From positions 126,570,708-126,634,707 of the forward strand of contig NC_080064.1 in NCBI RefSeq assembly GCF_949987535.1: a DNA stretch of 64,000 bases, written 5' to 3'. This DNA is from Balaenoptera acutorostrata. Its lineage: Eukaryota > Chordata > Mammalia > Artiodactyla > Balaenopteridae. The translations under genes were made by a program, and so were the position numbers. This document shows, piece by piece, positions 1 to 64,000 of this stretch; within the stretch, counting starts at the first letter, position 1; every line of letters starts with the position of its first letter. A model generated the notes under the pieces. It was not told the DNA's origin. It worked only from the letters and a program-made list of their open reading frames with translations, and did not search any database.

Positions 1-487
1 AGTGTAAGGAATTATTAGCCACATGCCTATCCAACCTCCAAAAAGGTTTCAGCTCACACAGGTCAAATGGCCATCAGCAAAAAGTCCACAAACTATAAAT
101 GCAGAAGGGGTTTTAGAGAACTCTGTACCTCCTAGCTCTGGTGGGATCTAAAGTGGTAACAGCACTAACAAAAACGGAATGGAGCTGCTTTACAAGGTAA
201 AAACTGAGCTACCATATGATGCGACAGGGCACCTTTTGAGCCTATTAACTAAGACCACCAGAATCGGAAAGACAGAGGCAGGCAAATGTGCACTGCAGCA
301 ATATTGAAATAGCCAAGACATGGAAGCAAAAAAAAGGTCCATAAACAGATGAATGGACAAAGACGAAGTGGTATACGTACCAAATGGAATAGAAGCCTCG
401 GGAACAAAATGAACAATGCCGTTTTCAGGACTACAGTTGAGCCTAGAAATAATCATATAAGGTTAAGTAAGTCAAAAGGGTATGACA
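1..487 (+). mobile_element. Decayed L1 3' end within C unit, part before SINE
   Basis: The ORF2-derived part of the L1 segment up to the SINE insertion point. Where A and B read 'aaattcaaattcaaaaagg', C reads 'cctatccaacctccaaaaagg', so C is distinct even outside the SINE. Confidence 0.8.
474..487 (+). repeat. Target-site duplication, left copy
   Basis: 'aaaagggtatgaca' directly before the SINE. It is identical to 795-808 and matches the empty-site sequence in B units (for example 3276-3289), which confirms the insertion point. Confidence 0.95.
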
Positions 488-500
488 GGGGCTTCCCTGG

Positions 501-511
501 TGGCGCAGTGA
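501..511 (+). promoter_or_regulatory. RNA polymerase III A-box-like element in SINE
   Basis: 'tggcgcagtga' sits where tRNA-derived SINEs carry the internal A box and resembles the tRNA consensus TGGCNNAGTGG. It recurs in all SINE copies. Whether it still drives transcription cannot be judged from sequence. Confidence 0.7.
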
Positions 512-543
512 TAGAGAATCTGCCTGCTAATGCAGGGGACGCG

Positions 544-554
544 GGTTCGAGCCC
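544..554 (+). promoter_or_regulatory. RNA polymerase III B-box-like element in SINE
   Basis: 'ggttcgagccc' contains GTTCGAGCC, which fits the B-box consensus GWTCRANNC completely. It lies 33 bp after the A box, the normal tRNA spacing. Thirteen copies read this; the copy at 45257 reads 'ggttcgatccc'. Confidence 0.8.
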
Positions 555-570
555 TGGTCTGGGAGGATCC

Positions 571-576
571 CACGTG
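571..576. promoter_or_regulatory. CACGTG palindromic E-box in SINE
   Basis: A perfect CACGTG, the core recognised by MYC/MAX, USF and related bHLH factors. I remember the CHR consensus as CACATG here, so the G may be a change specific to this element; that is memory, not measurement. It is present in each copy of the SINE. Confidence 0.6.
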
Positions 577-794
577 CCACAGAGCAACTGGGACCGTGAG
601 CCACAACTGCTGAGCCTGCGCATCTGGAGCCTGTGCCCCGCAACGGAAGGGGCCACGATAGTGAGAGGCCCGCGCACCGCAATGAAGAGTGGCCCCCGCT
701 TGCCGCAACTAGAGAAAGCCCTCGCACGAAACGAAGACCCAACACAGCTAAATAAATAGATAAATAAATAAATAAAGTAGCTATTAATTAAAAA

Positions 795-808
795 AAAAGG
801 GTATGACA
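795..808 (+). repeat. Target-site duplication, right copy
   Basis: Second copy of the 14-bp target site, merging on its left with the SINE A-tail, as expected for L1-driven integration. Confidence 0.93.
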
Positions 809-1200
809 AATATCCTATGATATCATTTATACATGTTATCCTAAGATTGCTACCAATGAACATATTTCCACAAAAAAAGACACTCACAGACTTATCAAAT
901 AAACTAATGGTTAGCCAAAATGAAAGGTCGGAGGATGGGTAAATTAGGACTATGGTGTTTACATACATATACTAATGTATGTTAAATGTATATAAACATA
1001 TAACAGAAAAACTATATGAATTATATAATCACCAATACCTTTAAAATATATATTGTGTAATCACATACATGCTAACAGGATCCGAAGATGAACAGACATA
1101 TGTATGAAACATTGAGCAGATTCTGTACAGCCAGACAATCAAAACACTCTAATCAAATTTACTCCGATAAGAAATAGAAATTAAATTGAAAAAACAAACA
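809..1200 (+). mobile_element. Decayed L1 3' end within C unit, part after SINE
   Basis: The continuation after the SINE: end of the ORF2 remnant, 3' UTR and A-rich tail ('aaattgaaaaaacaaac'). An AT-rich block from about 950 to 1060 holds no recognisable gene signal. Confidence 0.8.
961..982. repeat. Short inverted repeat in AT-rich block
   Basis: ACATACAT and ATGTATGT form a perfect 8-bp inverted repeat around a 6-base spacer. It is intact in B and C units. In A units the right arm reads ATGTTTGT, which breaks it. No function is evident. Confidence 0.7.
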
Positions 1201-1289
1201 GAAGTAAGGAGACATGAAGTTCTGGGGGCTTGTCCCAGCACATTCCACTCTAGTTTACAACCTTGGAACACTACCTCCAGGAAGACTCT

Positions 1290-1303
1290 GTTGCCCTAGT
1301 AAC
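1290..1303. promoter_or_regulatory. RFX-type X-box motif
   Basis: GTTGCC-CT-AGTAAC fits the RFX-family X-box consensus GTNRCC-N(0-3)-RGYAAC at every defined position. It lies in the non-L1 part of the unit. The same motif is at 2528-2541 in the first A unit, 3770-3783 in the first B and 8730-8743 in a pre-C form, and I saw no altered copy in the window. RFX proteins control ciliary, spermatogenic and MHC class II genes and include factors that bind methylated DNA. Binding here is inference only. Confidence 0.6.
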
Positions 1304-1325
1304 AAGAGTTGAGAACGTAATAATG

Positions 1326-1339
1326 CTGCCGCCTTGTGG
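1326..1339 (-). promoter_or_regulatory. CTCF-like motif (imperfect)
   Basis: On the minus strand this reads CCACAAGGCGGCAG, matching 12 of 14 positions of the CTCF core CCASYAGRKGGCRS. The two mismatches are at positions 5 and 9. It is repeated at 3806-3819. In A-type segments (for example 2564-2577) the CpG is lost to TpG, which weakens the match. Occupancy is uncertain. Confidence 0.35.
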
Positions 1340-1551
1340 CTGTTTCCCACAACAGCAGCTTTATACCCAGTGCCAATTGTTGCTTAATAGTCACAAGGAC
1401 TGCAGGGCTCTAAATGACACCTGCCCTCAAAAAATGCCCTGCGGTAGGGAATAGGCAAGAAAATTCAAGACATGAGAAAATTTTCAAGAAGTCAATAAGA
1501 GGAAGGAAGTTGTACTCACGCTTTAAAAAAAAGGAAAAGAAAAAAAAGGAC

Positions 1552-2073
1552 ATGCCTAAAGCTCAGTATAAGGAATTATTAGCCATAGGCAAATTCAAAT
1601 TCAAAAAGGTTTCAGCTCACACCAGTCATGACCATCAGCAAAAAGTCTACAAACTATAAATGCTGAAGGGGTTTTAGAGAACTGTGTACCTTCTAGCTGC
1701 TGGTGGGATGTAAAGTGGTAACAGCACTAACGCAAACTGAATCGAGCTGCTTTACAAGGTAAAACCTGAGCTACCATATGATGCGGCAGGGCACCTTTTG
1801 GGCCTATAACCTAAGACCACCAGAATCGGAAAGACAGAGGCAGGCAAATGTGCACTGCAGCAATATTGAAATAGCCAAGAAATGGAAGCAAAAAAAGATC
1901 CATAAACAGATGAATGGACAAAAAGAAGAGGTATATGGACAGCATGGAATAGTAGCCTCGGAAAAAAAATAAACAATGCCGTGTTCAGGACTACAGTTGA
2001 GCCTAGAAATAATCATATAAGGTTAAGTAAGTCAAAAAGGTATGACAAATATCCTATGATATCATTTATACAT
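1552..2073 (+). pseudogene. Remnant of L1 ORF2 C-terminal coding sequence
   Basis: Read in the old ORF2 frame around 1660-1720, residues such as the Cys-Trp-Trp of the C-terminal cysteine-rich segment remain. Other Cys/His positions of the CX3CX7HX4C motif are gone, and a stop (taa in 'tggtaacagc') follows. Farther on, the lysine/tyrosine-rich tail (reading YDKY-PMIS) is still recognisable. The reverse transcriptase and endonuclease domains are absent: only about the last 170 codons of a protein of roughly 1,275 residues are represented. It cannot encode a functional product. Confidence 0.75.
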
Positions 2074-2438
2074 GTTATCCTAAGATTGCTACCAATGAAC
2101 ATATTTCCACAAAAAAAGACACTCACAGACTTATCAAATAAACTAATTGTTAGCCAAAATGAAAGGTGGGAGGATGGGTAAATTAGGACTATGGGGTTAA
2201 CATACATATAGTAATGTTTGTTAAATGTATATAAACAAAAAACATACAAACTATATAAATTATATAATCACAATACCTTTAAAATATACATTCTGTAATT
2301 CCATACATGCTAACATGATCCGAAGAGGAACAGACATATGTGTGAATCATTGAGTAGATTCTGTACAGCCAGACAATCAAAACACTCTAATCAAATTTAC
2401 TCCGATAAGAAATAGAAATTAAATTTAAAAAACAAACA
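1552..2438 (+). mobile_element. Decayed L1 3' end within A unit
   Basis: This stretch resembles the 3' end of a mammalian L1. Recognisable pieces in order are: 'gctcag...aattattagcc...atgcaaattcaa', 'tcagctcacaccagtcatg', 'accatcagcaaaaagtctac', 'ctgctggtgggatgtaaag', 'gagctaccatatgatg', 'agccaagaaatggaagcaa', 'cataaacagatgaatggac' and 'ttaagtaagtcaaaa'. Next comes the 3' UTR with 'cactcacagacttatc' and 'aggtgggaggatgg'. It ends in 'ctgtacagcc...atttactccgataag...aaatttaaaaaac'. The order and orientation match L1 throughout, which makes chance similarity unlikely. The L1 AATAAA expected near 2403 now reads 'gataag'. The same segment recurs at the same offset in every A and B unit and, split by the SINE, in every C unit. 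Confidence 0.85.
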
Positions 2439-2808
2439 TAAGTAAGGAGACATGAAGTTCTGGGGGCTTGTCCCAGCACATTCCACTCTAGTTTACAACC
2501 TCGGAACACTACCTCCAGGAAGACTCTGTTGCCCTAGTAACAAGAGTTGAGAATGTAATAATGCTGCTGCCTTGTGGCTGTTTCCCACAACAGCAGCTTT
2601 AAACACACTGCTAATGGTTGCTTCATAGTCACAAGGATTGCAGGGCTCTAAATGACACCTGCCCTCAAGAAATGCCCTGGAGTGGGGAATAGGCAAGAAA
2701 ATTCAACACATGAGAAATTTTTCAAGAAGTCAATATGAAGAGGGAAGTTGTACTCACTCTTTATCAAAAAAAGGAAAAGAAAAAAAAGGACATGCTTAAA
2801 GCTCAGTA
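1569..2808 (+). repeat. A unit 1 (reference A)
   Basis: Used here as the reference A unit. A-specific marks include 'gtcaaaaaggtatgac' (B and C have 'aaaaggg'), 'aactaattgttagcc', 'tataaacaaaaaacatac', 'catgatccgaagagg', 'tgagtagattc' and 'aatgctgctgcc'. These marks are used to recognise hybrid units elsewhere in the window. Confidence 0.95.
2439..2790 (+). repeat. Unrecognised ~350-bp non-L1 segment (pre-B form)
   Basis: The form that precedes B units: 'gctgctgcc', 'aaacacactgctaatggttg', 'ccctggagtgggg', 'gaagagggaag'. It keeps the X-box intact but has lost the CpG of the CTCF-like motif. Confidence 0.6.
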
Positions 2809-3680
2809 TAAGGAATTATTAGCCACATGCAAATTCAAATTCAAAAAGGTTTCAGCTCACACCAGTCATGACCATCAGCAAAAAGACTACAAACTATAAA
2901 TGCTTAAGGGGTTTGAGAAAAATGTGTACCTTCTAGCTGCTCGTGGGATGTAAAGTGGTAACAGCACTAACGAAAACTGAATGGAGCTGCTACAAAGGTA
3001 AAAATTGAGCTACCATATGATGCGGCAGGGCACCTTTTGGGCCTATAACCTAAGACCACCAGAATCGGAAAGACAGAGGCAGGCAAATGTGAACTGCAAC
3101 AACATTGATATAGCCAAGACATGGAAGCAAAAAAAAGGTCCATAAACAGATGAATGGACAAAGACGAAGTGGTATACGTACCAAATGGAATAGAAGCCTC
3201 GGGAACAAAATGAACAATGCCGTTTTCAGGACTACAGTTGAGCCTAGAAATAATCATATAAGGTTAAGTAAGTCAAAAGGGTATGACAAATATCCTATGA
3301 TATCATTTATACATGTTATCCTAAGATTGCTACCAATGAACATATTTCCACAAAAAAAGACACTCACAGACTTATCAAATAAACTAATGGTTAGCCAAAC
3401 TGAAAGGTGGGAGGATGGGTAAATTAGGACTATGGCGTTTACATACATATACTAATGTATGTTAAATGTATGTAAACATATAACAGATAAACTATATGAA
3501 TTATATAATCACCAATACCTTTAAAATATATATTGTGTAATCACATACATGCTAACAGGATCCGAAGATGAACAGACATATGTATGAATCATTGAGCAGA
3601 TTCTGTACAGCCAGACAATCAAAACACTCTAATCAAATTTACTCCGATAAGAAATAGAAATTAAATTGAAAAAACAAACA
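2793..3680 (+). mobile_element. Decayed L1 3' end within B unit
   Basis: The same L1 segment as in the A unit, with B-specific substitutions. The uninterrupted empty target site of the SINE is at 3276-3289, showing the pre-insertion state. Confidence 0.83.
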
Positions 3681-4048
3681 GAAGTAAGGAGACATGAAGT
3701 TCTGGGGGCTTGTCCCAGCACATTCCACTCTAGTTTACAACCTCGGAACACTACCTCCAGGAAGACTCTGTTGCCCTAGTAACAAGAGTTGAGAACGTAA
3801 TAATGCTGCCGCCTTGTGGCTGTTTCCCACAACAGCAGCTTTATACCCAGTGCCAATTGTTGCTTAATAGTCACAAGGACTGCAGGGCTCTAAATGACAC
3901 CTGCCCTCAAAAAATGCCCTGCGGTAGGGAATAGGCAAGAAAATTCAAGACATGAGAAAATTTTCAAGAAGTCAATAAGAGGAAGGAAGTTGTACTCACG
4001 CTTTAAAAAAAAGGAAAAGAAAAAAAAGGACATGCCTAAAGCTCAGTA
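2809..4048 (+). repeat. B unit 1, followed by A
   Basis: B-specific marks are 'ctgcaacaacattgatatag', 'gctgctcgtggg', 'tagccaaactg' and 'aacagataaac'. The L1 3' end here is C-like ('caatcaaaac', 'aaattgaaaaaac'), and the last ~350 bp are the form that always precedes an A unit ('gaagttctggggg'). Confidence 0.95.
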
Positions 4049-5288
4049 TAAGGAATTATTAGCCATAGGCAAATTCAAATTCAAAAAGGTTTCAGCTCAC
4101 ACCAGTCATGACCATCAGCAAAAAGTCTACAAACTATAAATGCTGAAGGGGTTTTAGAGAACTGTGTACCTTCTAGCTGCTGGTGGGATGTAAAGTGGTA
4201 ACAGCACTAACGCAAACTGAATCGAGCTGCTTTACAAGGTAAAACCTGAGCTACCATATGATGCGGCAGGGCACCTTTTGGGCCTATAACCTAAGACCAC
4301 CAGAATCGGAAAGACAGAGGCAGGCAAATGTGCACTGCAGCAATATTGAAATAGCCAAGAAATGGAAGCAAAAAAAGATCCATAAACAGATGAATGGACA
4401 AAAAGAAGAGGTATATGGACAGCATGGAATAGTAGCCTCGGAAAAAAAATAAACAATGCCGTGTTCAGGACTACAGTTGAGCCTAGAAATAATCATATAA
4501 GGTTAAGTAAGTCAAAAAGGTATGACAAATATCCTATGATATCATTTATACATGTTATCCTAAGATTGCTACCAATGAACATATTTCCACAAAAAAAGAC
4601 ACTCACAGACTTATCAAATAAACTAATTGTTAGCCAAAATGAAAGGTGGGAGGATGGGTAAATTAGGACTATGGGGTTAACATACATATAGTAATGTTTG
4701 TTAAATGTATATAAACAAAAAACATACAAACTATATAAATTATATAATCACAATACCTTTAAAATATACATTCTGTAATTCCATACATGCTAACATGATC
4801 CGAAGAGGAACAGACATATGTGTGAATCATTGAGTAGATTCTGTACAGCCAGACAATCAAAACACTCTAATCAAATTTACTCCGATAAGAAATAGAAATT
4901 AAATTTAAAAAACAAACATAAGTAAGGAGACATGAAGTTCTGGGGGCTTGTCCCAGCACATTCCACTCTAGTTTACAACCTCGGAACACTACCTCCAGGA
5001 AGACTCTGTTGCCCTAGTAACAAGAGTTGAGAATGTAATAATGCTGCTGCCTTGTGGCTGTTTCCCACAACAGCAGCTTTAAACACACTGCTAATGGTTG
5101 CTTCATAGTCACAAGGATTGCAGGGCTCTAAATGACACCTGCCCTCAAGAAATGCCCTGGAGTGGGGAATAGGCAAGAAAATTCAACACATGAGAAATTT
5201 TTCAAGAAGTCAATATGAAGAGGGAAGTTGTACTCACTCTTTATCAAAAAAAGGAAAAGAAAAAAAAGGACATGCTTAAAGCTCAGTA
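4049..5288 (+). repeat. A unit 2
   Basis: No difference from A unit 1 noticed by eye. It forms the second A-B dimer of a run of three. Confidence 0.95.
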
Positions 5289-9010: not shown

Positions 9011-10574
9011 TAAGGAATTATTAGCCACATGCCTATCCAACCTCCAAAAAGGTTTCAGCTCACACAGGTCAAATGGCCATCAGCAAAAAGTCCACAAACT
9101 ATAAATGCAGAAGGGGTTTTAGAGAACTCTGTACCTCCTAGCTCTGGTGGGATCTAAAGTGGTAACAGCACTAACAAAAACGGAATGGAGCTGCTTTACA
9201 AGGTAAAAACTGAGCTACCATATGATGCGACAGGGCACCTTTTGAGCCTATTAACTAAGACCACCAGAATCGGAAAGACAGAGGCAGGCAAATGTGCACT
9301 GCAGCAATATTGAAATAGCCAAGACATGGAAGCAAAAAAAAGGTCCATAAACAGATGAATGGACAAAGACGAAGTGGTATACGTACCAAATGGAATAGAA
9401 GCCTCGGGAACAAAATGAACAATGCCGTTTTCAGGACTACAGTTGAGCCTAGAAATAATCATATAAGGTTAAGTAAGTCAAAAGGGTATGACAGGGGCTT
9501 CCCTGGTGGCGCAGTGATAGAGAATCTGCCTGCTAATGCAGGGGACGCGGGTTCGAGCCCTGGTCTGGGAGGATCCCACGTGCCACAGAGCAACTGGGAC
9601 CGTGAGCCACAACTGCTGAGCCTGCGCATCTGGAGCCTGTGCCCCGCAACGGAAGGGGCCACGATAGTGAGAGGCCCGCGCACCGCAATGAAGAGTGGCC
9701 CCCGCTTGCCGCAACTAGAGAAAGCCCTCGCACGAAACGAAGACCCAACACAGCTAAATAAATAGATAAATAAATAAATAAAGTAGCTATTAATTAAAAA
9801 AAAAGGGTATGACAAATATCCTATGATATCATTTATACATGTTATCCTAAGATTGCTACCAATGAACATATTTCCACAAAAAAAGACACTCACAGACTTA
9901 TCAAATAAACTAATGGTTAGCCAAAATGAAAGGTCGGAGGATGGGTAAATTAGAACTATGGTGTTTACATACATATACTAATGTATGTTAAATGTATATA
10001 AACATATAACAGAAAAACTATATGAATTATATAATCACCAATACCTTTAAAATATATATTGTGTAATCACATACATGCTAACAGGATCCGAAGATGAACA
10101 GACATATGTATGAAACATTGAGCAGATTCTGTACAGCCAGACAATCAAAACACTCTAATCAAATTTACTCCGATAAGAAATAGAAATTAAATTGAAACAA
10201 CAAACAGAAGTAAGGAGACATGAAGTTCTGGGGGCTTGTCCCAGCACATTCCACTCTAGTTTACAACCTCGGAACACTACCTCCAGGAAGACTCTGTTGC
10301 CCTAGTAACAAGAGTTGAGAACGTAATAATGCTGCCGCCTTGTGGCTGTTTCCCACAACAGCAGCTTTATACCCAGTGCCAATTGTTGCTTAATAGTCAC
10401 AAGGACTGCAGGGCTCTAAATGACACCTGCCCTCAAAAAATGCCCTGCGGTAGGGAATAGGCAAGAAAATTCAAGACATGAGAAAATTTTCAAGAAGTCA
10501 ATAAGAGGAAGGAAGTTGTACTCACGCTTTAAAAAAAAGGAAAAGAAAAAAAAGGACATGCCTAAAGCTCAGTA
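9011..10574 (+). repeat. C unit 2 (SINE-bearing)
   Basis: Private changes: G to A at 9954 ('tagaactatg') and A to C at 10198 inside the old A-rich tail. It shares 'gaaacattg' with C unit 1. Confidence 0.95.
9494..9800 (+). mobile_element. CHR-like SINE, copy 2
   Basis: Same length and target site (9480-9493, 9801-9814) as copy 1; no difference noticed. Confidence 0.9.
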
Positions 10575-11814
10575 TAAGGAATTATTAGCCATAGGCAAAT
10601 TCAAATTCAAAAAGGTTTCAGCTCACACCAGTCATGACCATCAGCAAAAAGTCTACAAACTATAAATGCTGAAGGGGTTTTAGAGAACTGTGTACCTTCT
10701 AGCTGCTGGTGGGATGTAAAGTGGTAACAGCACTAACGCAAACTGAATCGAGCTGCTTTACAAGGTAAAACCTGAGCTACCATATGATGCGGCAGGGCAC
10801 CTTTTGGGCCTATAACCTAAGACCACCAGAATCGGAAAGACAGAGGCAGGCAAATGTGCACTGCAGCAATATTGAAATAGCCAAGAAATGGAAGCAAAAA
10901 AAGATCCATAAACAGATGAATGGACAAAAAGAAGAGGTATATGGACAGCATGGAATAGTAGCCTCGGAAAAAAAATAAACAATGCCGTGTTCAGGACTAC
11001 AGTTGAGCCTAGAAATAATCATATAAGGTTAAGTAAGTCAAAAAGGTATGACAAATATCCTATGATATCATTTATACATGTTATCCTAAGATTGCTACCA
11101 ATGAACATATTTCCACAAAAAAAGACACTCACAGACTTATCAAATAAACTAATTGTTAGCCAAAATGAAAGGTGGGAGGATGGGTAAATTAGGACTATGG
11201 GGTTAACATACATATAGTAATGTTTGTTAAATGTATATAAACAAAAAACATACAAACTATATAAATTATATAATCACAATACCTTTAAAATATACATTCT
11301 GTAATTCCATACATGCTAACATGATCCGAAGAGGAACAGACATATGTGTGAATCATTGAGTAGATTCTGTACAGCCAGACAATCAAAACACTCTAATCAA
11401 ATTTACTCCGATAAGAAATAGAAATTAAATTTAAAAAACAAACATAAGTAAGGAGACATGAAGTTCTGGGGGCTTGTCCCAGCACATTCCACTCTAGTTT
11501 ACAACCTCGGAACACTACCTCCAGGAAGACTCTGTTGCCCTAGTAACAAGAGTTGAGAATGTAATAATGCTGCTGCCTTGTGGCTGTTTCCCACAACAGC
11601 AGCTTTAAACACACTGCTAATGGTTGCTTCATAGTCACAAGGATTGCAGGGCTCTAAATGACACCTGCCCTCAAGAAATGCCCTGGAGTGGGGAATAGGC
11701 AAGAAAATTCAACACATGAGAAATTTTTCAAGAAGTCAATATGAAGAGGGAAGTTGTACTCACTCTTTATCAAAAAAAGGAAAAGAAAAAAAAGGACATG
11801 CTTAAAGCTCAGTA
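10575..11814 (+). repeat. A unit 4
   Basis: No difference from the reference A noticed by eye. Confidence 0.95.
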
Positions 11815-13056
11815 TAAGGAATTATTAGCCACATGCAAATTCAAATTCAAAAAGGTTTCAGCTCACACCAGTCATGACCATCAGCAAAAAGACTACAAAC
11901 TATAAATGCTTAAGGGGTTTGAGAAAAATGTGTACCTTCTAGCTGCTCGTGGGATGTAAAGTGGTAACAGCACTAACGAAAACTGAATGGAGCTGCTACA
12001 AAGGTAAAAATTGAGCTACCATATGATGCGGCAGGGCACCTTTTGGGCCTATAACCTAAGACCACCAGAATCGGAAAGACAGAGGCAGGCAAATGTGAAC
12101 TGCAACAACATTGATATAGCCAAGACATGGAAGCAAAAAAAAGGTCCATAAACAGATGAATGGACAAAGACGAAGTGGTATACGTACCAAATGGAATAGA
12201 AGCCTCGGGAACAAAATGAACAATGCCGTTTTCAGGACTACAGTTGAGCCTAGAAATAATCATATAAGGTTAAGTAAGTCAAAAGGGTATGACAAATATC
12301 CTATGATATCATTTATACATGTTATCCTAAGATTGCTACCAATGAACATATTTCCACAAAAAAAGACACTCACAGACTTATCAAATAAACTAATGGTTAG
12401 CCAAACTGAAAGGTGGGAGGATGGGTAAATTAGGACTATGGCGTTTACATACATATACTAATGTATGTTAAATGTATGTAAACATATAACAGATAAACTA
12501 TATGAATTATATAATCACCAATACCTTTAAAATATATATTGTGTAATCACATACATGCTAACAGGATCCGAAGATGAACAGACATATGTATGAATCATTG
12601 AGCAGATTCTGTACAGCCAGACAATGAAAACACTCTAATCAAATTTACTCCGATAAGAAATAGAAATTAAATTTAAAAAACAAACAGAAGTAAGGAGACA
12701 TAAACTTCTCGGGGCTTCTCCCAGCACATTCCACTCTAACTCACAACCTCGGAACACTACCTAGAGGAAGACTCTGTTGCCCTAGTAACAAGAGTTGAGA
12801 ACGTAATAATGCTGCCGCCTTGTGGCTGTTTCCCACAACAGCAGCTTTATACCCAGTGCCTATTGTTGCTTAATAGTCACAAGGACTGCAGGGCACTAAA
12901 TGACACCTGCCTTCAAAAAAGGCCCTGGGGTAGGGAATAGGCAAGAAAATTCAACACATGAGAAATTTTTCAGGAAGTCAATATGAAGAGGGAAGTTGTA
13001 CTCACTCTTTAACAAAAAAAGGAAAAGAAGAAAAAGGGGATGCCTAAAGCTCAGTG
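11815..13056 (+). repeat. B unit 4, followed by C
   Basis: Standard B with the pre-C ending; it has 'gggcactaaatg', where B unit 3 has 'gggcagtaaatg'. Confidence 0.95.
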
Positions 13057-14620
13057 TAAGGAATTATTAGCCACATGCCTATCCAACCTCCAAAAAGGTT
13101 TCAGCTCACACAGGTCAAATGGCCATCAGCAAAAAGTCCACAAACTATAAATGCAGAAGGGGTTTTAGAGAACTCTGTACCTCCTAGCTCTGGTGGGATC
13201 TAAAGTGGTAACAGCACTAACAAAAACGGAATGGAGCTGCTTTACAAGGTAAAAACTGAGCTACCATATGATGCGACAGGGCACCTTTTGAGCCTATTAA
13301 CTAAGACCACCAGAATCGGAAAGACAGAGGCAGGCAAATGTGCACTGCAGCAATATTGAAATAGCCAAGACATGGAAGCAAAAAAAAGGTCCATAAACAG
13401 ATGAATGGACAAAGACGAAGTGGTATACGTACCAAATGGAATAGAAGCCTCGGGAACAAAATGAACAATGCCGTTTTCAGGACTACAGTTGAGCCTAGAA
13501 ATAATCATATAAGGTTAAGTAAGTCAAAAGGGTATGACAGGGGCTTCCCTGGTGGCGCAGTGATAGAGAATCTGCCTGCTAATGCAGGGGACGCGGGTTC
13601 GAGCCCTGGTCTGGGAGGATCCCACGTGCCACAGAGCAACTGGGACCGTGAGCCACAACTGCTGAGCCTGCGCATCTGGAGCCTGTGCCCCGCAACGGAA
13701 GGGGCCACGATAGTGAGAGGCCCGCGCACCGCAATGAAGAGTGGCCCCCGCTTGCCGCAACTAGAGAAAGCCCTCGCACGAAACGAAGACCCAACACAGC
13801 TAAATAAATAGATAAATAAATAAATAAAGTAGCTATTAATTAAAAAAAAAGGGTATGACAAATATCCTATGATATCATTTATACATGTTATCCTAAGATT
13901 GCTACCAATGAACATATTTCCACAAAAAAAGACACTCACAGACTTATCAAATAAACTAATGGTTAGCCAAAATGAAAGGTCGGAGGATGGGTAAATTAGG
14001 ACTATGGTGTTTACATACATATACTAATGTATGTTAAATGTATATAAACATATAACAGAAAAACTATATGAATTATATAATCACCAATACCTTTAAAATA
14101 TATATTGTGTAATCACATACATGCTAACAGGATCCGAAGATGAACAGACATATGTATGAATCATTGAGCAGATTCTGTACAGCCAGACAATCAAAACACT
14201 CTAATCAAATTTACTCCGATAAGAAATAGAAATTAAATTGAAAAAACAAACAGAAGTAAGGAGACATGAAGTTCTGGGGGCTTGTCCCAGCACATTCCAC
14301 TCTAGTTTACAACCTCGGAACACTACCTCCAGGAAGACTCTGTTGCCCTAGTAACAAGAGTTGAGAACGTAATAATGCTGCCGGCTTGTGGCTGTTTCCC
14401 ACAACAGCAGCTTTATACCCAGTGCCAATTGTTGCTTAATAGTCACAAGGACTGCAGGGCTCTAAATGACACCTGCCCTCAAAAAATGCCCTGCGGTAGG
14501 GAATAGGCAAGAAAATTCAAGACATGAGAAAATTTTCAAGAAGTCAATAAGAGGAAGGAAGTTGTACTCACGCTTTAAAAAAAAGGAAAAGAAAAAAAAG
14601 GACATGCCTAAAGCTCAGTA
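13057..14620 (+). repeat. C unit 3 (SINE-bearing)
   Basis: It carries 'gctgccggcttg' near 14383 (others 'gctgccgccttg'), shared only with C unit 4, so these two neighbours are probably recent copies of one another. Confidence 0.95.
13540..13846 (+). mobile_element. CHR-like SINE, copy 3
   Basis: No difference from copy 1 noticed. Confidence 0.9.
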
Positions 14621-48819: not shown

Positions 48820-50385
48820 TAAGGAATTATTAGCCACATGCCTATCCAACCTCCAAAAAGGTTTCAGCTCACACAGGTCAAATGGCCATCAGCAAAAAGT
48901 CCACAAACTATAAATGCAGAAGGGGTTTTAGAGAACTCTGTACCTCCTAGCTCTGGTGGGATCTAAAGTGGTAACAGCACTAACAAAAACGGAATGGAGC
49001 TGCTTTACAAGGTAAAAACTGAGCTACCATATGATGCGACAGGGCACCTTTTGAGCCTATTAACTAAGACCACCAGAATCGGAAAGACAGAGGCAGGCAA
49101 ATGTGCACTGCAGCAATATTGAAATAGCCAAGACATGGAAGCAAAAAAAAGGTCCATAAACAGATGAATGGACAAAGACGAAGTGGTATACGTACCAAAT
49201 GGAATAGAAGCCTCGGGAACAAAATGAACAATGCCGTTTTCAGGACTACAGTTGAGCCTAGAAATAATCATATAAGGTTAAGTAAGTCAAAAGGGTATGA
49301 CAGGGGCTTCCCTGGTGGCGCAGTGATAGAGAATCTGCCTGCTAATGCAGGGGACGCGGGTTCGAGCCCTGGTCTGGGAGGATCCCACGTGCCACAGAGC
49401 AACTGGGACCGTGAGCCACAACTGCTGAGCCTGCGCATCTGGAGCCTGTGCCCCGCAACGGAAGGGGCCACGATAGTGAGAGGCCCGCGCACCGCAATGA
49501 AGAGTGGCCCCCGCTTGCCGCAACTAGAGAAAGCCCTCGCACGAAACGAAGACCCAACACAGCTAAATAAATAGATAAATAAATAAATAAAGTAGCTATT
49601 AATTAAAAAAAAAGGGTATGACAAATATCCTATGATATCATTTATACATGTTATCCTAAGATTGCTACCAATGAACATATTTCCACAAAAAAAGACACTC
49701 ACAGACTTATCAAATAAACTAATGGTTAGCCAAAATGAAAGGTCGGAGGATGGGTAAATTAGGACTATGGTGTTTACATACATATACTAATGTATGTTAA
49801 ATGTATATAAACATATAACAGAAAAACTATATGAAATATATAATCACCAATACCTTTAAAATATATATTGTGTAATCACATACATGCTAACAGGATCCGA
49901 AGATGAACAGACATATGTATGAATCATTGAGCAGATTCTGTACAGCCAGACAATCAAAACACTCTAATCAAATTTACTCCGATAAGAAATAGAAATTAAA
50001 TTGAAAAAACAAACAGAAGTAAGGAGACATGAAGTTCTGGGGGCTTGTCCCAGCACATTCCACTCTAGTTTACAACCTCGGAACACTACCTCCAGGAAGA
50101 CTCTGTTGCCCTAGTAACAAGAATTGAGAATGTAATAATGCTGCTGCCTTGTGGCTGTTTCCCACAACAGCAGCTTTAAACACACTGCTAATGGTTGCTT
50201 CATAGTCACAAGGATTGCAGGGCTCTAAATGACACCTGCCCTCAAGAAATGCCCTGGAGTGGGGAATAGGCAAGAAAATTCAACACATGAGAAATTTTTC
50301 AAGAAGTCAATATGAAGAGGGAAGTTGTACTCACTCTTTATCAAAAAAAGGAAAAGAAAAAAAAGGACATGTTTAAAGCTCAGTA
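48820..50385 (+). repeat. C/A hybrid unit 1 (SINE-bearing)
   Basis: C-type through the SINE and L1 3' end ('ggtgtttacat', 'aaattgaaaaaac', 'acagaag' to 50016), then A-type from 50123 ('aagaattgag', 'gctgctgcc', 'aaacacactgctaatgg'). It is followed directly by B, so a full A unit is missing. Private T to A at 49836 and C to T at 50372. Confidence 0.93.
49303..49609 (+). mobile_element. CHR-like SINE, copy 10
   Basis: As copy 1; it lies in the first C/A hybrid unit. Confidence 0.9.
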
Positions 50386-51627
50386 TAAGGAATTATTAGC
50401 CACATGCAAATTCAAATTCAAAAAGGTTTCAGCTCACACCAGTCATGACCATCAGCAAAAAGACTACAAACTATAAATGCTTAAGGGGTTTGAGAAAAAT
50501 GTGTACCTTCTAGCTGCTCGTGGGATGTAAAGTGGTAACAGCACTAACGAAAACTGAATGGAGCTGCTACAAAGGTAAAAATTGAGCTACCATATGATGC
50601 GGCAGGGCACCTTTTGGGCCTATAACCTAAGACCACCAGAATCGGAAAGACAGAGGCAGGCAAATGTGAACTGCAACAACATTGATATAGCCAAGACATG
50701 GAAGCAAAAAAAAGGTCCATAAACAGATGAATGGACAAAGACGAAGTGGTATACGTACCAAATGGAATAGAAGCCTCGGGAACAAAATGAACAATGCCGT
50801 TTTCAGGACTACAGTTGAGCCTAGAAATAATCATATAAGGTTAAGTAAGTCAAAAGGGTATGACAAATATCCTATGATATCATTTATACATGTTATCCTA
50901 AGATTGCTACCAATGAACATATTTCCACAAAAAAAGACACTCACAGACTTATCAAATAAACTAATGGTTAGCCAAACTGAAAGGTGGGAGGATGGGTAAA
51001 TTAGGACTATGGCGTTTACATACATATACTAATGTATGTTAAATGTATGTAAACATATAACAGATAAACTATATGAATTATATAATCACCAATACCTTTA
51101 AAATATATATTGTGTAATCACATACATGCTAACAGGATCCGAAGATGAACAGACATATGTATGAATCATTGAGCAGATTCTGTACAGCCAGACAATGAAA
51201 ACACTCTAATCAAATTTACTCCGATAAGAAATAGAAATTAAATTTAAAAAACAAACAGAAGTAAGGAGACATAAACTTCTCGGGGCTTCTCCCAGCACAT
51301 TCCACTCTAACTCACAACCTCGGAACACTACCTAGAGGAAGACTCTGTTGCCCTAGTAACAAGAGTTGAGAACGTAATAATGCTGCCGCCTTGTGGCTGT
51401 TTCCCACAACAGCAGCTTTATACCCAGTGCCTATTGTTGCTTAACAGTCACAAGGACTGCAGGGCACTAAATGACACCTGCCTTCAAAAAAGGCCCTGGG
51501 GTAGGGAATAGGCAAGAAAATTCAACACATGAGAAATTTTTCAGGAAGTCAATATGAAGAGGGAAGTTGTACTCACTCTTTAACAAAAAAAGGAAAAGAA
51601 GAAAAAGGGGATGCCTAAAGCTCAGTG
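50386..51627 (+). repeat. B unit 15, followed by C
   Basis: Private T to C at 51445 ('cttaacagtc'). Otherwise standard B. Confidence 0.95.
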
Positions 51628-52110
51628 TAAGGAATTATTAGCCACATGCCTATCCAACCTCCAAAAAGGTTTCAGCTCACACAGGTCAAATGGCCATCAG
51701 CAAAAAGTCCACAAACTATAAATGCAGAAGGGGTTTTAGAGAACTCTGTACCTCCTAGCTCTGGTGGGATCTAAAGTGGTAACAGCACTAACAAAAACGG
51801 AATGGAGCTGCTTTACAAGGTAAAAACTGAGCTACCATATGATGCGACAGGGCACCTTTTGAGCCTATTAACTAAGACCACCAGAATCGGAAAGACAGAG
51901 GCAGGCAAATGTGCACTGCAGCAATATTGAAATAGCCAAGACATGGAAGCAAAAAAAAGGTCCATAAACAGATGAATGGACAAAGACGAAGTGGTATACG
52001 TACCAAATGGAATAGAAGCCTCGGGAACAAAATGAACAATGCCGTTTTCAGGACTACAGTTGAGCCTAGAAATAATCATATAAGGTTAAGTAAGTCAAAA
52101 GGGTATGACA

Positions 52111-52415
52111 GGGGCTTCCCTGGTGGCGCAGTGATAGAGAATCTGCCTGCTAATGCAGGGGACGCGGGTTCGAGCCCTGGTCTGGGAGGATCCCACGTGC
52201 CACAGAGCAACTGGGACCGTGAGCCACAACTGCTGAGCCTGCGCATCTGGAGCCTGTGCCCCGCAACGGAAGGGGCCACGATAGTGAGAGGCCCGCGCAC
52301 CGCAATGAAGAGTGGCCCCCGCTTGCCGCAACTAGAGAAAGCCCTCGCACGAAACGAAGACCCAACACAGCTAAATAAATAGATAAATAAATAAATAAAG
52401 TAGCTATTAATTAAA
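52111..52415 (+). mobile_element. CHR-like SINE, copy 11
   Basis: Two A residues shorter in the tail than copy 1. Confidence 0.9.
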
Positions 52416-52619
52416 AAAAGGGTATGACAAATATCCTATGATATCATTTATACATGTTATCCTAAGATTGCTACCAATGAACATATTTCCACAAAAAAAG
52501 ACACTCACAGACTTATCAAATAAACTAATGGTTAGCCAAAATGAAAGGTGGGAGGATGGGTAAATTAGGACTATGGTGTTTACATACATATACTAATGTA
52601 TGTTAAATGTATATAAACA

Positions 52620-52737
52620 AAAAACATACAAACTATATAAATTATATAATCACAATGCCTTTAAAATATACATTCTGTAATTCCATACATGCTAACATGA
52701 TCTGAAGAGGAACAGACATATGTGTGAATCATTGAGT
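52620..52737 (+). repeat. A-type conversion patch inside a C unit
   Basis: C-type sequence runs to 52618, A-type from 52620 ('aaaaaacatacaaactatat', 'cacaatgcc', 'catgatctgaagagg', 'gtgtgaatc', 'gagtagattc') to 52737, and C-type resumes by 52808 ('aaattgaaaaaac'). Unit length is unchanged by the patch, as expected for gene conversion. Confidence 0.85.
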
Positions 52738-53188
52738 AGATTCTGTACAGCCAGACAATCAAAACACTCTAATCAAATTTACTCCGATAAGAAATAGAAA
52801 TTAAATTGAAAAAACAAACAGAAGTAAGGAGACATGAAGTTCTGGGGGCTTGTCCCAGCACATTCCACTCTAGTTTACAACCTCGGAACACTACCTCCAG
52901 GAAGACTCTGTTGCCCTAGTAACAAGAGTTGAGAACGTAATAATGCTGCCGCCTTGTGGCTGTTTCCCACAACAGCAGCTTTATACCCAGTGCCAATTGT
53001 TGCTTAATAGTCACAAGGACTGCAGGGCTCTAAATGACACCTGCCCTCAAAAAATGCCCTGCGGTAGGGAATAGGCAAGAAAATTCAAGACATGAGAAAA
53101 TTTTCAAGAAGTCAATAAGAGGAAGGAAGTTGTACTCATGCTTTAAAAAAAAGGAAAAGAAAAAAAAGGACATGCCTAAAGCTCAGTA

Positions 53189-54426
53189 TAAGGAATTATT
53201 AGCCATAGGCAAATTCAAATTCAAAAAGGTTTCAGCTCACACCAGTCATGACCATCAGCAAAAAGTCTACAAACTATAAATGCTGAAGGGGTTTTAGAGA
53301 ACTGTGTACCTTCTAGCTGCTGGTGGGATGTAAAGTGGTAACAGCACTAACGCAAACTGAATCGAGCTGCTTTACAAGGTAAAACCTGAGCTACCATATG
53401 ATGCGGCAGGGCACCTTTTGGGCCTATAACCTAAGACCACCAGAATCGGAAAGACAGAGGCAGGCAAATGTGCACTGCAGCAATATTGAAATAGCCAAGA
53501 AATGGAAGCAAAAAAAGATCCATAAACAGATGAATGGACAAAAAGAAGAGGTATATGGACAGCATGGAATAGTAGCCTCGGAAAAAAAAAACAATGCCGT
53601 GTTCAGGACTACAGTTGAGCCTAGAAATAATCATATAAGGTTAAGTAAGTCAAAAAGGTATGACAAATATCCTATGATATCATTTATACATGTTATCCTA
53701 AGATTGCTACCAATGAACATATTTCCACAAAAAAAGACACTCACAGACTTATCAAATAAACTAATTGTTAGCCGAAATGAAAGGTGGGAGGATGGGTAAA
53801 TTAGGACTATGGGGTTAACATACATATAGTAATGTTTGTTAAATGTATATAAACAAAAAACATACAAACTATATAAATTATATAATCACAATACCTTTAA
53901 AATATACATTCTGTAATTCCATACATGCTAACATGATCCGAAGAGGAACAGACATATGTGTGAATCATTGAGTAGATTCTGTACAGCCAGACAATCAAAA
54001 CACTCTAATCAAATTTACTCCGATAAGAAATAGAAATTAAATTTAAAAAACAAACATAAGTAAGGAGACAGAAAGTTCTGGGGGCTTGTCCCAGCACATT
54101 CCACTCTAGTTTACAACCTCGGAACACTACCTCCAGGAAGACTCTGTTGCCCTAGTAACAAGAATTGAGAATGTAATAATGCTGCTGCCTTGTGGCTGTT
54201 TCCCACAACAGCAGCTTTAAACACACTGCTAATGGTTGCTTCATAGTCACAAGGATTGCAGGGCTCTAAATGACACCTGCCCTCAAGAAATGCCCTGGAG
54301 TGGGGAATAGGCAAGAAAATTCAACACATGAGAAATTTTTCAAGAAGTCAATATGAAGAGGGAAGTTGTACTCACTCTTTATCAAAAAAAGGAAAAGAAA
54401 AAAAAGGACATGCTTAAAGCTCAGTA
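53189..54426 (+). repeat. A unit 15 (2-bp deletion)
   Basis: Loss of two bases near 53589 turns 'gaaaaaaaataaac' into 'gaaaaaaaaaac', giving 1,238 bp. It has 'tagccgaaatg', 'aagaattgag' and 'gacagaaagttc'. Confidence 0.95.
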
Positions 54427-58471: not shown

Positions 58472-59713
58472 TAAGGAATTTATAGCCACATGCAAATTCA
58501 AATTCAAAAAGGTTTCAGCTCACACCAGTCATGACCATCAGCAAAAAGACTACAAACTATAAATGCTTAAGGGGTTTGAGAAAAATGTGTACCTTCTAGC
58601 TGCTCGTGGGATGTAAAGTGGTAACAGCACTAACGAAAACTGAATGGAGCTGCTACAAAGGTAAAAATTGAGCTACCATATGATGCGGCAGGGCACCTTT
58701 TGGGCCTATAACCTAAGACCACCAGAATCGGAAAGACAGAGGCAGGCAAATGTGAACTGCAACAACATTGATATAGCCAAGACATGGAAGCAAAAAAAAG
58801 GTCCATAAACAGATGAATGGACAAAGACGAAGTGGTATACGTACCAAATGGAATAGAAGCCTCGGGAACAAAATGAACAATGCCGTTTTCAGGACTACAG
58901 TTGAGCCTAGAAATAATCATATAAGGTTAAGTAAGTCAAAAGGGTATGACAAATATCCTATGATATCATTTATACATGTTATCCTAAGATTGCTACCAAT
59001 GAACATATTTCCACAAAAAAAGACACTCACAGACTTATCAAATAAACTAATGGTTAGCCAAACTGAAAGGTGGGAGGATGGGTAAATTAGGACTATGGCG
59101 TTTACATACATATACTAATGTATGTTAAATGTATGTAAACATATAACAGATAAACTATATGAATTATATAATCACCAATACCTTTAAAATATATATTGTG
59201 TAATCACATACATGCTAACAGGATCCGAAGATGAACAGACATATGTATGAATCATTGAGCAGATTCTGTACAGCCAGACAATGAAAACACTCTAATCAAA
59301 TTTACTCCGATAAGAAATAGAAATTAAATTTAAAAAACAAACAGAAGTAAGGAGACATAAACTTCTCGGGGCTTCTCCCAGCACATTCCACTCTAACTCA
59401 CAACCTCGGAACACTACCTAGAGGAAGACTCTGTTGCCCTAGTAACAAGAGTTGAGAACGTAATAATGCTGCCGCCTTGTGGCTGTTTCCCACAACAGCA
59501 GCTTTATACCCAGTGCCTATTGTTGCTTAATAGTCACAAGGACTGCAGGGCACTAAATGACACCTGCCTTCAAAAAAGGCCCTGGGGTAGGGAATAGGCA
59601 AGAAAATTCAACACATGAGAAATTTTTCAGGAAGTCAATATGAAGAGGGAAGTTGTACTCACTCTTTAACAAAAAAAGGAAAAGAAGAAAAAGGGGATGC
59701 CTAAAGCTCAGTG
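58472..59713 (+). repeat. B unit 17, followed by C
   Basis: 'ggaatttatagcc' near 58478 replaces 'ggaattattagcc', shared only with B unit 18. Confidence 0.95.
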
Positions 59714-61278
59714 TAAGGAATTATTAGCCACATGCCTATCCAACCTCCAAAAAGGTTTCAGCTCACACAGGTCAAATGGCCATCAGCAAAAAGTCCACAA
59801 ACTATAAATGCAGAAGGGGTTTTAGAGAACTCTGTACCTCCTAGCTCTGGTGGGATCTAAAGTGGTAACAGCACTAACAAAAACGGAATGGAGCTGCTTT
59901 ACAAGGTAAAAACTGAGCTACCATATGATGCGACAGGGCACCTTTTGAGCCTATTAACTAAGACCACCAGAATCGGAAAGACAGAGGCAGGCAAATGTGC
60001 ACTGCAGCAATATTGAAATAGCCAAGACATGGAAGCAAAAAAAAGGTCCATAAACAGATGAATGGACAAAGACGAAGTGGTATACGTACCAAATGGAATA
60101 GAAGCCTCGGGAACAAAATGAACAATGCCGTTTTCAGGACTACAGTTGAGCCTAGAAATAATCATATAAGGTTAAGTAAGTCAAAAGGGTATGACAGGGG
60201 CTTCCCTGGTGGCGCAGTGATAGAGAATCTGCCTGCTAATGCAGGGGACGCGGGTTCGAGCCCTGGTCTGGGAGGATCCCACGTGCCACAGAGCAACTGG
60301 GACCGTGAGCCACAACTGCTGAGCCTGCGCATCTGGAGCCTGTGCCCCGCAACGGAAGGGGCCACGATAGTGAGAGGCCCGCGCACCGCAATGAAGAGTG
60401 GCCCCCGCTTGCCGCAACTAGAGAAAGCCCTCGCACGAAACGAAGACCCAACACAGCTAAATAAATAGATAAATAAATAAATAAAGTAGCTATTAATTAA
60501 AAAAAAAGGGTATGACAAATATCCTATGATATCATTTATACATGTTATCCTAAGATTGCTACCAATGAACATATTTCCACAAAAAAAGACACTCACAGAC
60601 TTATCAAATAAACTAATTGTTAGCCGAAATGAAAGGTGGGAGGATGGGTAAATTAGGACTATGGGGTTAACATACATATAGTAATGTTTGTTAAATGTAT
60701 ATAAACAAAAAACATACAAACTATATAAATTATATAATCACAATACCTTTAAAATATACATTCTGTAATTCCATACATGCTAACATGATCCGAAGAGGAA
60801 CAGACATATGTGTGAATCATTGAGTAGATTCTGTACAGCCAGACAATCAAAACACTCTAATCAAATTTACTCCGATAAGAAATAGAAATTAAATTTAAAA
60901 AACAAACATAAGTAAGGAGACAGAAAGTTCTGGGGGCTTGTCCCAGCACATTCCACTCTAGTTTACAACCTCGGAACACTACCTCCAGGAAGACTCTGTT
61001 GCCCTAGTAACAAGAATTGAGAATGTAATAATGCTGCTGCCTTGTGGCTGTTTCCCACAACAGCAGCTTTAAACACACTGCTAATGGTTGCTTCATAGTC
61101 ACAAGGATTGCAGGGCTCTAAATGACACCTGCCCTCAAGAAATGCCCTGGAGTGGGGAATAGGCAAGAAAATTCAACACATGAGAAATTTTTCAAGAAGT
61201 CAATATGAAGAGGGAAGTTGTACTCACTCTTTATCAAAAAAAGGAAAAGAAAAAAAAGGACATGCTTAAAGCTCAGTA
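59714..61278 (+). repeat. C/A hybrid unit 2 (SINE-bearing)
   Basis: C-type through the SINE and its second target-site copy (to 60517), then A-type from 60618 ('aactaattgttagccgaaat') to the end. It lacks one unit length, like hybrid 1, but with a different breakpoint. Confidence 0.93.
60197..60503 (+). mobile_element. CHR-like SINE, copy 13
   Basis: As copy 1; it lies just upstream of the C-to-A switch in the second hybrid unit. Confidence 0.9.
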
Positions 61279-62521
61279 TAAGGAATTTATAGCCACATGC
61301 AAATTCAAATTCAAAAAGGTTTCAGCTCACACCAGTCATGACCATCAGCAAAAAGACTACAAACTATAAATGCTTAAGGGGTTTGAGAAAAATGTGTACC
61401 TTCTAGCTGCTCGTGGGATGTAAAGTGGTAACAGCACTAACGAAAACTGAATGGAGCTGCTACAAAGGTAAAAATTGAGCTACCATATGATGCGGCAGGG
61501 CACCTTTTGGGCCTATAACCTAAGACCACCAGAATCGGAAAGACAGAGGCAGGCAAATGTGAACTGCAACAACATTGATATAGCCAAGACATGGAAGCAA
61601 AAAAAAGGTCCATAAACAGATGAATGGACAAAGACGAAGTGGTATACGTACCAAATGGAATAGAAGCCTCGGGAACAAAATGAACAATGCCGTTTTCAGG
61701 ACTACAGTTGAGCCTAGAAATAATCATATAAGGTTAAGTAAGTCAAAAGGGTATGACAAATATCCTATGATATCATTTATACATGTTATCCTAAGATTGC
61801 TACCAATGAACATATTTCCACAAAAAAAGACACTCACAGACTTATCAAATAAACTAATGGTTAGCCAAACTGAAAGGTGGGAGGATGGGTAAATTAGGAC
61901 TATGGCGTTTACATACATATACTAATGTATGTTAAATGTATGTAAACATATAACAGATAAACTATATGAATTATATAATCACCAATACCTTTAAAATATA
62001 TATTGTGTAATCACATACATGCTAACAGGATCCGAAGATGAACAGACATATGTATGAATCATTGAGCAGATTCTGTACAGCCAGACAATGAAAACACTCT
62101 AATCAAATTTACTCCGATAAGAAATAGAAATTAAATTTAAAAAACAAACAGAAGTAAGGAGACATAAACTTCTCGGGGCTTCTCCCAGCACATTCCACTC
62201 TAACTCACAACCTCGGAACACTACCTAGAGGAAGACTCTGTTGCCCTAGTAACAAGAGTTGAGAACGTAATAATGCTGCCGCCTTGTGGCTGTTTCCCAC
62301 AACAGCAGCTTTATACCCAGTGCCTATTGTTGCTTAATAGTCACAAGGACTGCAGGGCACTAAATGACACCTGCCTTCAAAAAAGGCCCTGGGGTAGGGA
62401 ATAGGCAAGAAAATTCAACACATGAGAAATTTTTCAGGAAGTCAATATGAAGAGGGAAGTTGTACTCACTCTTTAACAAAAAAAAGGAAAAGAAGAAAAA
62501 GGGGATGCCTAAAGCTCAGTG
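61279..62521 (+). repeat. B unit 18, followed by C
   Basis: It shares 'ggaatttatagcc' with B unit 17. One extra A in 'aacaaaaaaaagg' makes it 1,243 bp. Confidence 0.95.
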
Positions 62522-64000
62522 TAAGGAATTATTAGCCACATGCCTATCCAACCTCCAAAAAGGTTTCAGCTCACACAGGTCAAATGGCCATCAGCAAAAA
62601 GTCCACAAACTATAAATGCAGAAGGGGTTTTAGAGAACTCTGTACCTCCTAGCTCTGGTGGGATCTAAAGTGGTAACAGCACTAACAAAAACGGAATGGA
62701 GCTGCTTTACAAGGTAAAAACTGAGCTACCATATGATGCGACAGGGCACCTTTTGAGCCTATTAACTAAGACCACCAGAATCGGAAAGACAGAGGCAGGC
62801 AAATGTGCACTGCAGCAATATTGAAATAGCCAAGACATGGAAGCAAAAAAAAGGTCCATAAACAGATGAATGGACAAAGACGAAGTGGTATACGTACCAA
62901 ATGGAATAGAAGCCTCGGGAACAAAATGAACAATGCCGTTTTCAGGACTACAGTTGAGCCTAGAAATAATCATATAAGGTTAAGTAAGTCAAAAGGGTAT
63001 GACAGGGGCTTCCCTGGTGGCGCAGTGATAGAGAATCTGCCTGCTAATGCAGGGGACGCGGGTTCGAGCCCTGGTCTGGGAGGATCCCACGTGCCACAGA
63101 GCAACTGGGACCGTGAGCCACAACTGCTGAGCCTGCGCATCTGGAGCCTGTGCCCCGCAACGGAAGGGGCCACGATAGTGAGAGGCCCGCGCACCGCAAT
63201 GAAGAGTGGCCCCCGCTTGCCGCAACTAGAGAAAGCCCTCGCACGAAACGAAGACCCAACACAGCTAAATAAATAGATAAATAAATAAATAAAGTAGCTA
63301 TTAATTTAAAAAAAAGGGTATGACAAATATCCTATGATATCATTTATACATGTTATCCTAAGATTGCTACCAATGAACATATTTCCACAAAAAAAGACAC
63401 TCACAGACTTATCAAATAAACTAATGGTTAGCCAAAATGAAAGGTGGGAGGATGGGTAAATTAGGACTATGGTGTTTACATACATATACTAATGTATGTT
63501 AAATGTATATAAACATATAACAGAAAAACTATATGAATTATATAATCACCAATACCTTTAAAATATATATTGTGTAATCACATACATGCTAACAGGATCC
63601 GAAGATGAACAGACATATGTATGAATCATTGAGCAGATTCTGTACAGCCAGACAATCAAAACACTCTAATCAAATTTACTCCGATAAGAAATAGAAATTA
63701 AATTGAAAAAACAAACAGAAGTAAGGAGACATGAAGTTCTGGGGGCTTGTCCCAGCACATTCCACTCTAGTTTACAACCTCGGAACACTACCTCCAGGAA
63801 GACTCTGTTGCCCTAGTAACAAGAGTTGAGAACGTAATAATGCTGCCGCCTCGTGGCTGTTTCCCACAACAGCAGCTTTATACCCAGTGCCAATTGTTGC
63901 TTAATAGTCACAAGGACTGCAGGGCTCTAAATGACACCTGCCCTCAAAAAATGCCCTGCGGTAGGGAATAGGCAAGAAAATTCAAGACATGAGAAAATTT
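62522..64000 (+). repeat. C unit 12, partial at window edge (SINE-bearing)
   Basis: Runs off the window before the unit ends. Private T to C at 63852 ('ccgcctcgtgg'). It has 'ggtgggagg' and 'gaatcattg'. It heads towards a further A unit, since its ending is the pre-A form. Confidence 0.95.
63005..63311 (+). mobile_element. CHR-like SINE, copy 14
   Basis: The tail has 'taatttaaaa', as copy 7. Confidence 0.9.

Follow-up and report, generated by a model that had tools for sequence, protein, structure and literature searches.

An L1-derived satellite array of Balaenoptera acutorostrata with a SINE-marked higher-order repeat

What kind of DNA fills 64,000 nucleotides of a whale contig with copies of one unit, how might it have arisen, and is it already known? 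The stretch in question, referred to here as the window and analysed over its full 64,000 nt, spans positions 126,570,708 to 126,634,707 of contig NC_080064.1 in the Balaenoptera acutorostrata assembly GCF_949987535.1. We consider it very probable that the window holds a non-coding satellite in which the 3' end of an L1 element and its flank were duplicated, a short interspersed nuclear element (SINE) marks a higher-order repeat, and unequal crossing-over has shaped the array, probably within cetacean constitutive heterochromatin. Whale heterochromatin amounts to 25-30% of the genome according to a passage in PMC7763226.

The window is organized as a head-to-tail array along its entire length (1..64000, plus strand). 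A 16-mer anchor has 48 exact matches on the plus strand and 0 on the minus strand, and the spacings between anchors cluster near 1,240, 1,244 and 1,562 bp. This corresponds to 47 complete units (149-62665) with partial units at both ends. Units without a SINE measure 1,238-1,245 bp (n = 34), and the 13 complete units bearing one measure 1,559-1,564 bp. Alignment of the 47 units resolved three main types, A (n = 16), C (n = 13) and D+ (n = 11), while mosaic analysis identified two minor, recombinant types, D- (n = 5) and B+ (n = 2). The basic higher-order repeat is the trimer D+ A C of 4,046 bp, with a canonical example at 9155..13200 on the plus strand; 4,046 is also the commonest k-mer spacing, followed by 2,480, and 2,808 bp is a further higher-order spacing. 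Read in order, the 47 units form 13 blocks, namely eight of D+ A C, two of D+ A D- A D- A C, one of D+ A D- A C and two of B+ C. All 46 neighbour pairs belong to just seven kinds. Tandem Repeats Finder, with a longest period of 500 and a score of at least 200, listed nothing for the window, and the inverted repeats within 1-14000 amount to imperfect matches of 28 bases between units of different types.

In a representative unit, the L1 piece lies at 1548..2438 on the plus strand and runs from the end of ORF2, assigned by protein comparison, probably through the 3' untranslated region (3'UTR) to the poly(A), assigned by a provisional reference. Its reading frame is broken by stops and shifts. 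A tblastn search with residues 1080-1275 of L1 ORF2p (PDB 8sxt, E up to 1) returned 96 high-scoring segment pairs in the window, all in plus frames and colinear, with a best E of 6e-7, and the reversed-window control returned 0. The ORF2 match is clear from ORF2p residue about 1111-1118 and weak from 1089. This match is weaker in A units, with a best E of 4e-4 in the tested A stretch. When the best 120 of 7,999 scored L1 C-terminal proteins were considered, each of the 120 matched the C, D- and D+ stretches under test with E no higher than 1e-3, while the A stretch was matched by 94 of them, in every case on the plus strand only. Because the frame of this decayed copy is broken, single-frame pieces of the window found no L1 family in Pfam (8 pieces from both L1 and non-L1 DNA, with two weak sub-cut-off matches to unrelated families) and no match in the PDB (2 pieces). 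The L1 match emerges only from searches of the DNA with known L1 proteins.

The 3'UTR was compared up to the poly(A) with an artiodactyl-type L1 3' end serving as a provisional reference, giving 76% for the A consensus and 77% for the C consensus. For these two consensus sequences the alignment scores were 114 (A) and 117 (C) against that provisional reference, compared with 18 for the reverse complement and 39 and 32 for the best of 40 shuffles. A read-through protein extending into the 3'UTR gave no independent support for the 3'UTR alone, with 142 of 300 shuffles scoring as well. At the level of sequence comparison, we regard the ORF2-end identity of the L1 part as confirmed and its 3'UTR identity, which depends on the provisional reference, as probable.

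The remainder of each unit is a segment that does not belong to L1. We measured it from the marker at the L1 poly(A) edge to the marker at the next L1 start: 27 units have 349 bases, 15 have 347 and one has 350, together 43 of the 47 complete units. An altered left marker blocks the exact parse in units 8, 41, 44 and 46, and the window ends within unit 48. The example at 2439..2787 (plus strand, 349 bases by its edge markers) closes with an A-rich end before the next L1 piece. Open reading frame (ORF) pieces from this non-L1 DNA matched no Pfam family above cut-off. An ORF over the A-rich junction (1414-1659) had 30 protein matches, of which one is the window's own (P0260) and the remaining 29 are encoded on ENA contigs no longer than 2,438 bases. 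Of these 29 outside proteins, 11 (P0241-P0251) include sequence from both sides of the junction, and the same non-L1/L1 junction therefore exists in other contigs. Several of the variant junctions seen outside the window fall at or near the A-rich stretch, which may be prone to breakage; the junctions could also mark array edges, be genuine variants or stem from chimeric contigs.

The common junction suggests that a 5'-truncated L1 3' end of about 890 bp, together with about 350 bp of other DNA, would have been duplicated in tandem and expanded. Alternatively, each unit could be a separate retrotransposition of a composite element made of L1 plus flank. A few outside proteins in which the non-L1 segment stands beside other sequence (P0255, P0263, P0267 and P0268) would suit such an origin, but the contigs that encode them are short and may be chimeric, and the units of the window abut one another, all in the same orientation, with constant junctions and a regular higher-order arrangement. 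We find separate retrotransposition scarcely credible. Tandem duplication of one locus holding an L1 3' end and its flank is also what the earlier note on this DNA had proposed, and the common junction, the segment length of 347-350 bases in 43 of 47 units and the 11 of 29 outside proteins agree with it. The same note had described every unit as one truncated, decayed L1 3' end joined to one ~350-bp segment, with 1,240 bp as the full length of a unit, a description borne out by the 48 anchors on one strand and the ORF2 homology. It had further raised whether the L1 segments might fail to align to L1 3' ends; alignments were obtained with 8sxt, the 120 L1 proteins and the provisional 3'UTR reference, leaving the claim unrefuted.

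A feature absent from the earlier finding is a SINE insert of 305-308 bp in 14 of the 48 units. Two exact copies of a 14-bp duplication, AAAAGGGTATGACA, flank the SINE in all 14. In the first D+ unit, the left copy is located at 474..487, the SINE at 488..794 and the right copy at 795..808, all on the plus strand; this SINE is 307 bp long and has a B-box-like motif, GGTTCGANNCC, and an AAATA-rich tail, the latter read from the sequence. B-box matches number 14 for the 14 SINE-bearing units. The exact empty site, with one copy of AAAAGGGTATGACA at the same place, is found in 18 of the 34 SINE-less units (types C and D-), and the other 16, all of type A, have the site with one base different. 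The insert is a tRNA-derived SINE, with target-site duplication, B box and A-rich tail all present. It may be CHR-2-like. As described in PMC9223172, CHR-1 and CHR-2 are tRNA-Glu-derived SINEs, CHR-1 occurs in cetaceans, hippos and ruminants, and one CHR-2 subfamily backs the monophyly of toothed whales. ARAGORN on the whole window gave no tRNA match, and Rfam on positions 1-6000 gave no RNA gene.

The SINE copies have a mean identity of 0.995 and a minimum of 0.984. The observed/expected CpG ratio is 0.77 in the SINE versus 0.24 in one A unit, which fits an insert younger than the unit around it. Since position and duplication are identical throughout, a single insertion seems likely: a tRNA-type SINE would have entered a D unit and created the 14-bp duplication, for which both empty and filled sites are observed. 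The D+ A C block would have spread afterwards as the higher-order repeat.

Several further matches touch the SINE. An antisense SINE frame (472-708) has 764 related predicted proteins in the database, and a 172-codon open frame on the minus strand (453-971), antisense across SINE and L1, looks fortuitous. IMG/VR contig L001 was tried as a SINE carrier at 474-494 and rejected; it shares a 21-base SINE head word, no SINE was seen around it by eye, and we take the match as chance. Viral contigs scanned for satellite words and L1 words gave no match, and neither did scans of prokaryote genomes.

How the array has turned over can be read from its recombinant units. The five D- units lack a SINE and pass from C-type sequence on the left to D-type sequence on the right, with four distinct switch points among them. 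On the plus strand they lie at 2951..4190 (u03, switching at alignment columns 860-992), 5431-6670 (u05, columns 1040-1068), 20049-21288 and 22529-23768 (u16 and u18, both at columns 844-860) and 41194-42433 (u32, columns 1227-1261). The two B+ units, u38 at 48964..50527, followed by a C unit, and u46 at 59858-61420 (both plus strand), are D+-type with the SINE on the left and A-type on the right, each with its own switch point. Thus, all seven D- and B+ units show a C-to-D or a D-to-A switch, six without exception and u32 with one isolated opposite site. Every D- unit stands between A units (5 of 5), and every B+ unit stands between C units (2 of 2).

The breakpoints and neighbours of the seven recombinants fit unequal crossing-over, a mechanism that we infer from these footprints. 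Crossing-over of a C unit with the D+ unit of the following trimer would yield a SINE-less D- unit and a gain of one D- A pair, and a crossover between D+ and A would yield a B+ unit and the loss of one unit. A different footprint is seen in the D+ unit u40 (51772..53330, plus strand), which contains an internal A-type tract. Within columns 851-969, 14 of 14 diagnostic sites are A-type; there is an isolated A site at 781, and the other listed nearby sites are D-type. This patch resembles gene conversion. Unequal exchange between repeats that had paired out of register by whole units, together with some gene conversion, would have homogenised the array and altered its copy number.

The degree of homogenisation is evident from the identities within and between types, which were computed without counting gaps. 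Mean within-type identity is 0.9982 for A, 0.9987 for C and 0.9957 for D+, versus between-type means of 0.920 (A-C), 0.940 (A-D+) and 0.950 (C-D+). Types A, C and D are now 5-8% apart. From A to C, the non-L1 segment has diverged to about the same extent as the L1 part (0.085, compared with 0.092 in ORF2 and 0.056 in the 3'UTR), and from C to D+ the changes are 0.059 in ORF2, 0.066 in the non-L1 segment and 0.019 in the 3'UTR, where the two types are closer. Differences between A units grow with distance, from a mean of 1.33 to 6.0. The D+ units mostly diverge with distance as well, from 6.5 to 11.4, with a value of 4 in the last bin (one pair) and one outlier, u40. These values support an old L1 within a recently homogenised array, as the earlier note had held from the near identity of same-type copies.

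Several points weigh against the history proposed here. No target-site duplication was found for the L1 itself (2307 of 5000 shuffles were as good), so the L1 may have been truncated either on insertion or through the duplication. A few outside proteins (P0255, P0256, P0263, P0267, P0268 and P0270) join the non-L1 segment or the L1 start to other sequence. The C units show no growth of difference with distance, and the growth among A units stems from the right-hand units, which depart from the consensus. Some of the recombinants could be long conversion tracts, and the identical copies could have been inflated by assembly. Lastly, the placement in heterochromatin is one that we infer. As an observation on the A units themselves, the last three (about 46480-58613) are 2, 6 and 6 alignment positions off the A consensus, and the first nine are 0 positions off.

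Assembly deserves separate consideration, as the order and identity of the repeats could be partly an artefact. Nine of the 16 A units match the A consensus exactly, and such copies are of the sort that assemblers collapse or multiply. However, 10 of 11 D+ units and 9 of 13 C units have distinct sequences, and the neighbours of the recombinants are lawful. We therefore judge an assembly artefact to be improbable, and favour a tandemly duplicated array remodelled by unequal exchange.

Could such an array have a function? We saw no sign of a coding function, and any role would presumably be structural, as passive heterochromatin. The non-L1 segment contains a 14-bp palindrome, GTTGCCCTAGTAAC, at 1290..1303 on the plus strand, which is exact and occurs once in each of the 48 units. 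It appears to be X-box-like. An X-box-like site was present in 18 of 3000 simulated A units. Its rarity in simulation and its exactness in 48 of 48 units could be taken to mean that the array is a functional centromere, or that it recruits a protein through the invariant palindrome. On the other hand, the palindrome was noticed post hoc, its constancy is expected from homogenisation, and a search of the window for CENP-B boxes with up to one mismatch found 0 where 1.9 were expected. Both roles strike us as very improbable, and a passive, non-coding satellite is the reading that we prefer.

The common cetacean satellite is about 1.58 kb in delphinids and longer elsewhere. Its original descriptions, known to us from citations, are reportedly those of Widegren 1985, Arnason 1992 and Kapitonov, Holmquist and Jurka 1998. 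The earlier note did not recognise the array in the window as a named satellite. The idea that its kind might be unrecognised finds no support, as a satellite of cetacean heterochromatin derived from L1 was already published in 1998: passages of three papers (PMC9659126, PMC8909793, PMC6947457) state or tabulate an L1 origin for the common cetacean satellite and cite Kapitonov, Holmquist and Jurka 1998 for it. A review passage likens its monomer to the 3'-terminal part of L1. PMC7763226, which also cites Kapitonov et al. 1998, refers to a paper whose title gives 1,579 bp for the killer-whale component. The kind is thus already known, and the array is a SINE-marked higher-order variant of this L1-derived kind of satellite.

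Whether it is also the same family is a narrower question, and the comparison is one of description and length, as given in those passages and that title. Like the common cetacean satellite, the array has a long tandem monomer resembling a mammalian L1 3' end, and D+, at about 1,562 bp, is within about 1% of 1,579 bp. Unlike it, the array has a base unit of about 1,240 bp, a SINE-marked trimer and unequal-crossover recombinants. The array may be the common cetacean satellite itself, with D+ as the published monomer and A and C as SINE-less variants, and we rate this as a substantial possibility, if somewhat short of an even chance. The L1-3'-like monomer of the review passage and the proximity of the title's 1,579 bp to the 1,559-1,564 bp of the 13 complete SINE-bearing units argue for it. 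However, 34 of the 48 units have no SINE and measure 1,238-1,245 bp.

We tentatively entertain another explanation, in which the array belongs to a separate cetacean satellite family that arose on its own from a different L1 3' end with a different flank. No length given in the literature passages agrees with a base unit of about 1,240 bp or with the spacings of 4,046, 2,480 and 2,808 bp, but D+ comes within about 1% of 1,579 bp. The fuller proposition, that a family separate from the common cetacean satellite carries one SINE insertion marking its higher-order phase, with SINE presence or absence reporting crossovers directly, seems to us doubtful. If it is true, exchange rates in a mammalian satellite would become countable across species. 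Among the literature matches listed, in their titles and abstract openings and with subscription journals mostly uncovered, none describes a SINE-marked higher-order L1 satellite of cetaceans, and the literature found on L1-derived cetacean satellites does not, in the parts available, describe such a structure. Should long-read assemblies of cetaceans bear it out, the SINE together with the diagnostic sites could serve as natural markers for counting unequal crossovers and conversions and for dating array turnover.

Comparable systems exist outside cetaceans. Primate alpha-satellite consists of multimeric repeats homogenised by unequal exchange, built from 171-bp monomers that are not L1-derived. 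Its higher-order repeats share with the array a multimeric, homogenised plan, whereas the array is L1-derived and lacks a CENP-B-box match. Tandem repeats sharing L1 sequence, as here, are also described in passages of PMC9659126 for PROsat of Phodopus roborovskii and Pvc 20 of the harbour seal. By that account, PROsat and Pvc 20 involve ORF2 (a small region in PROsat; for Pvc 20, a microsatellite paper is cited), whereas in the array the L1 3' end and the 350-bp non-L1 segment together make up the whole unit.

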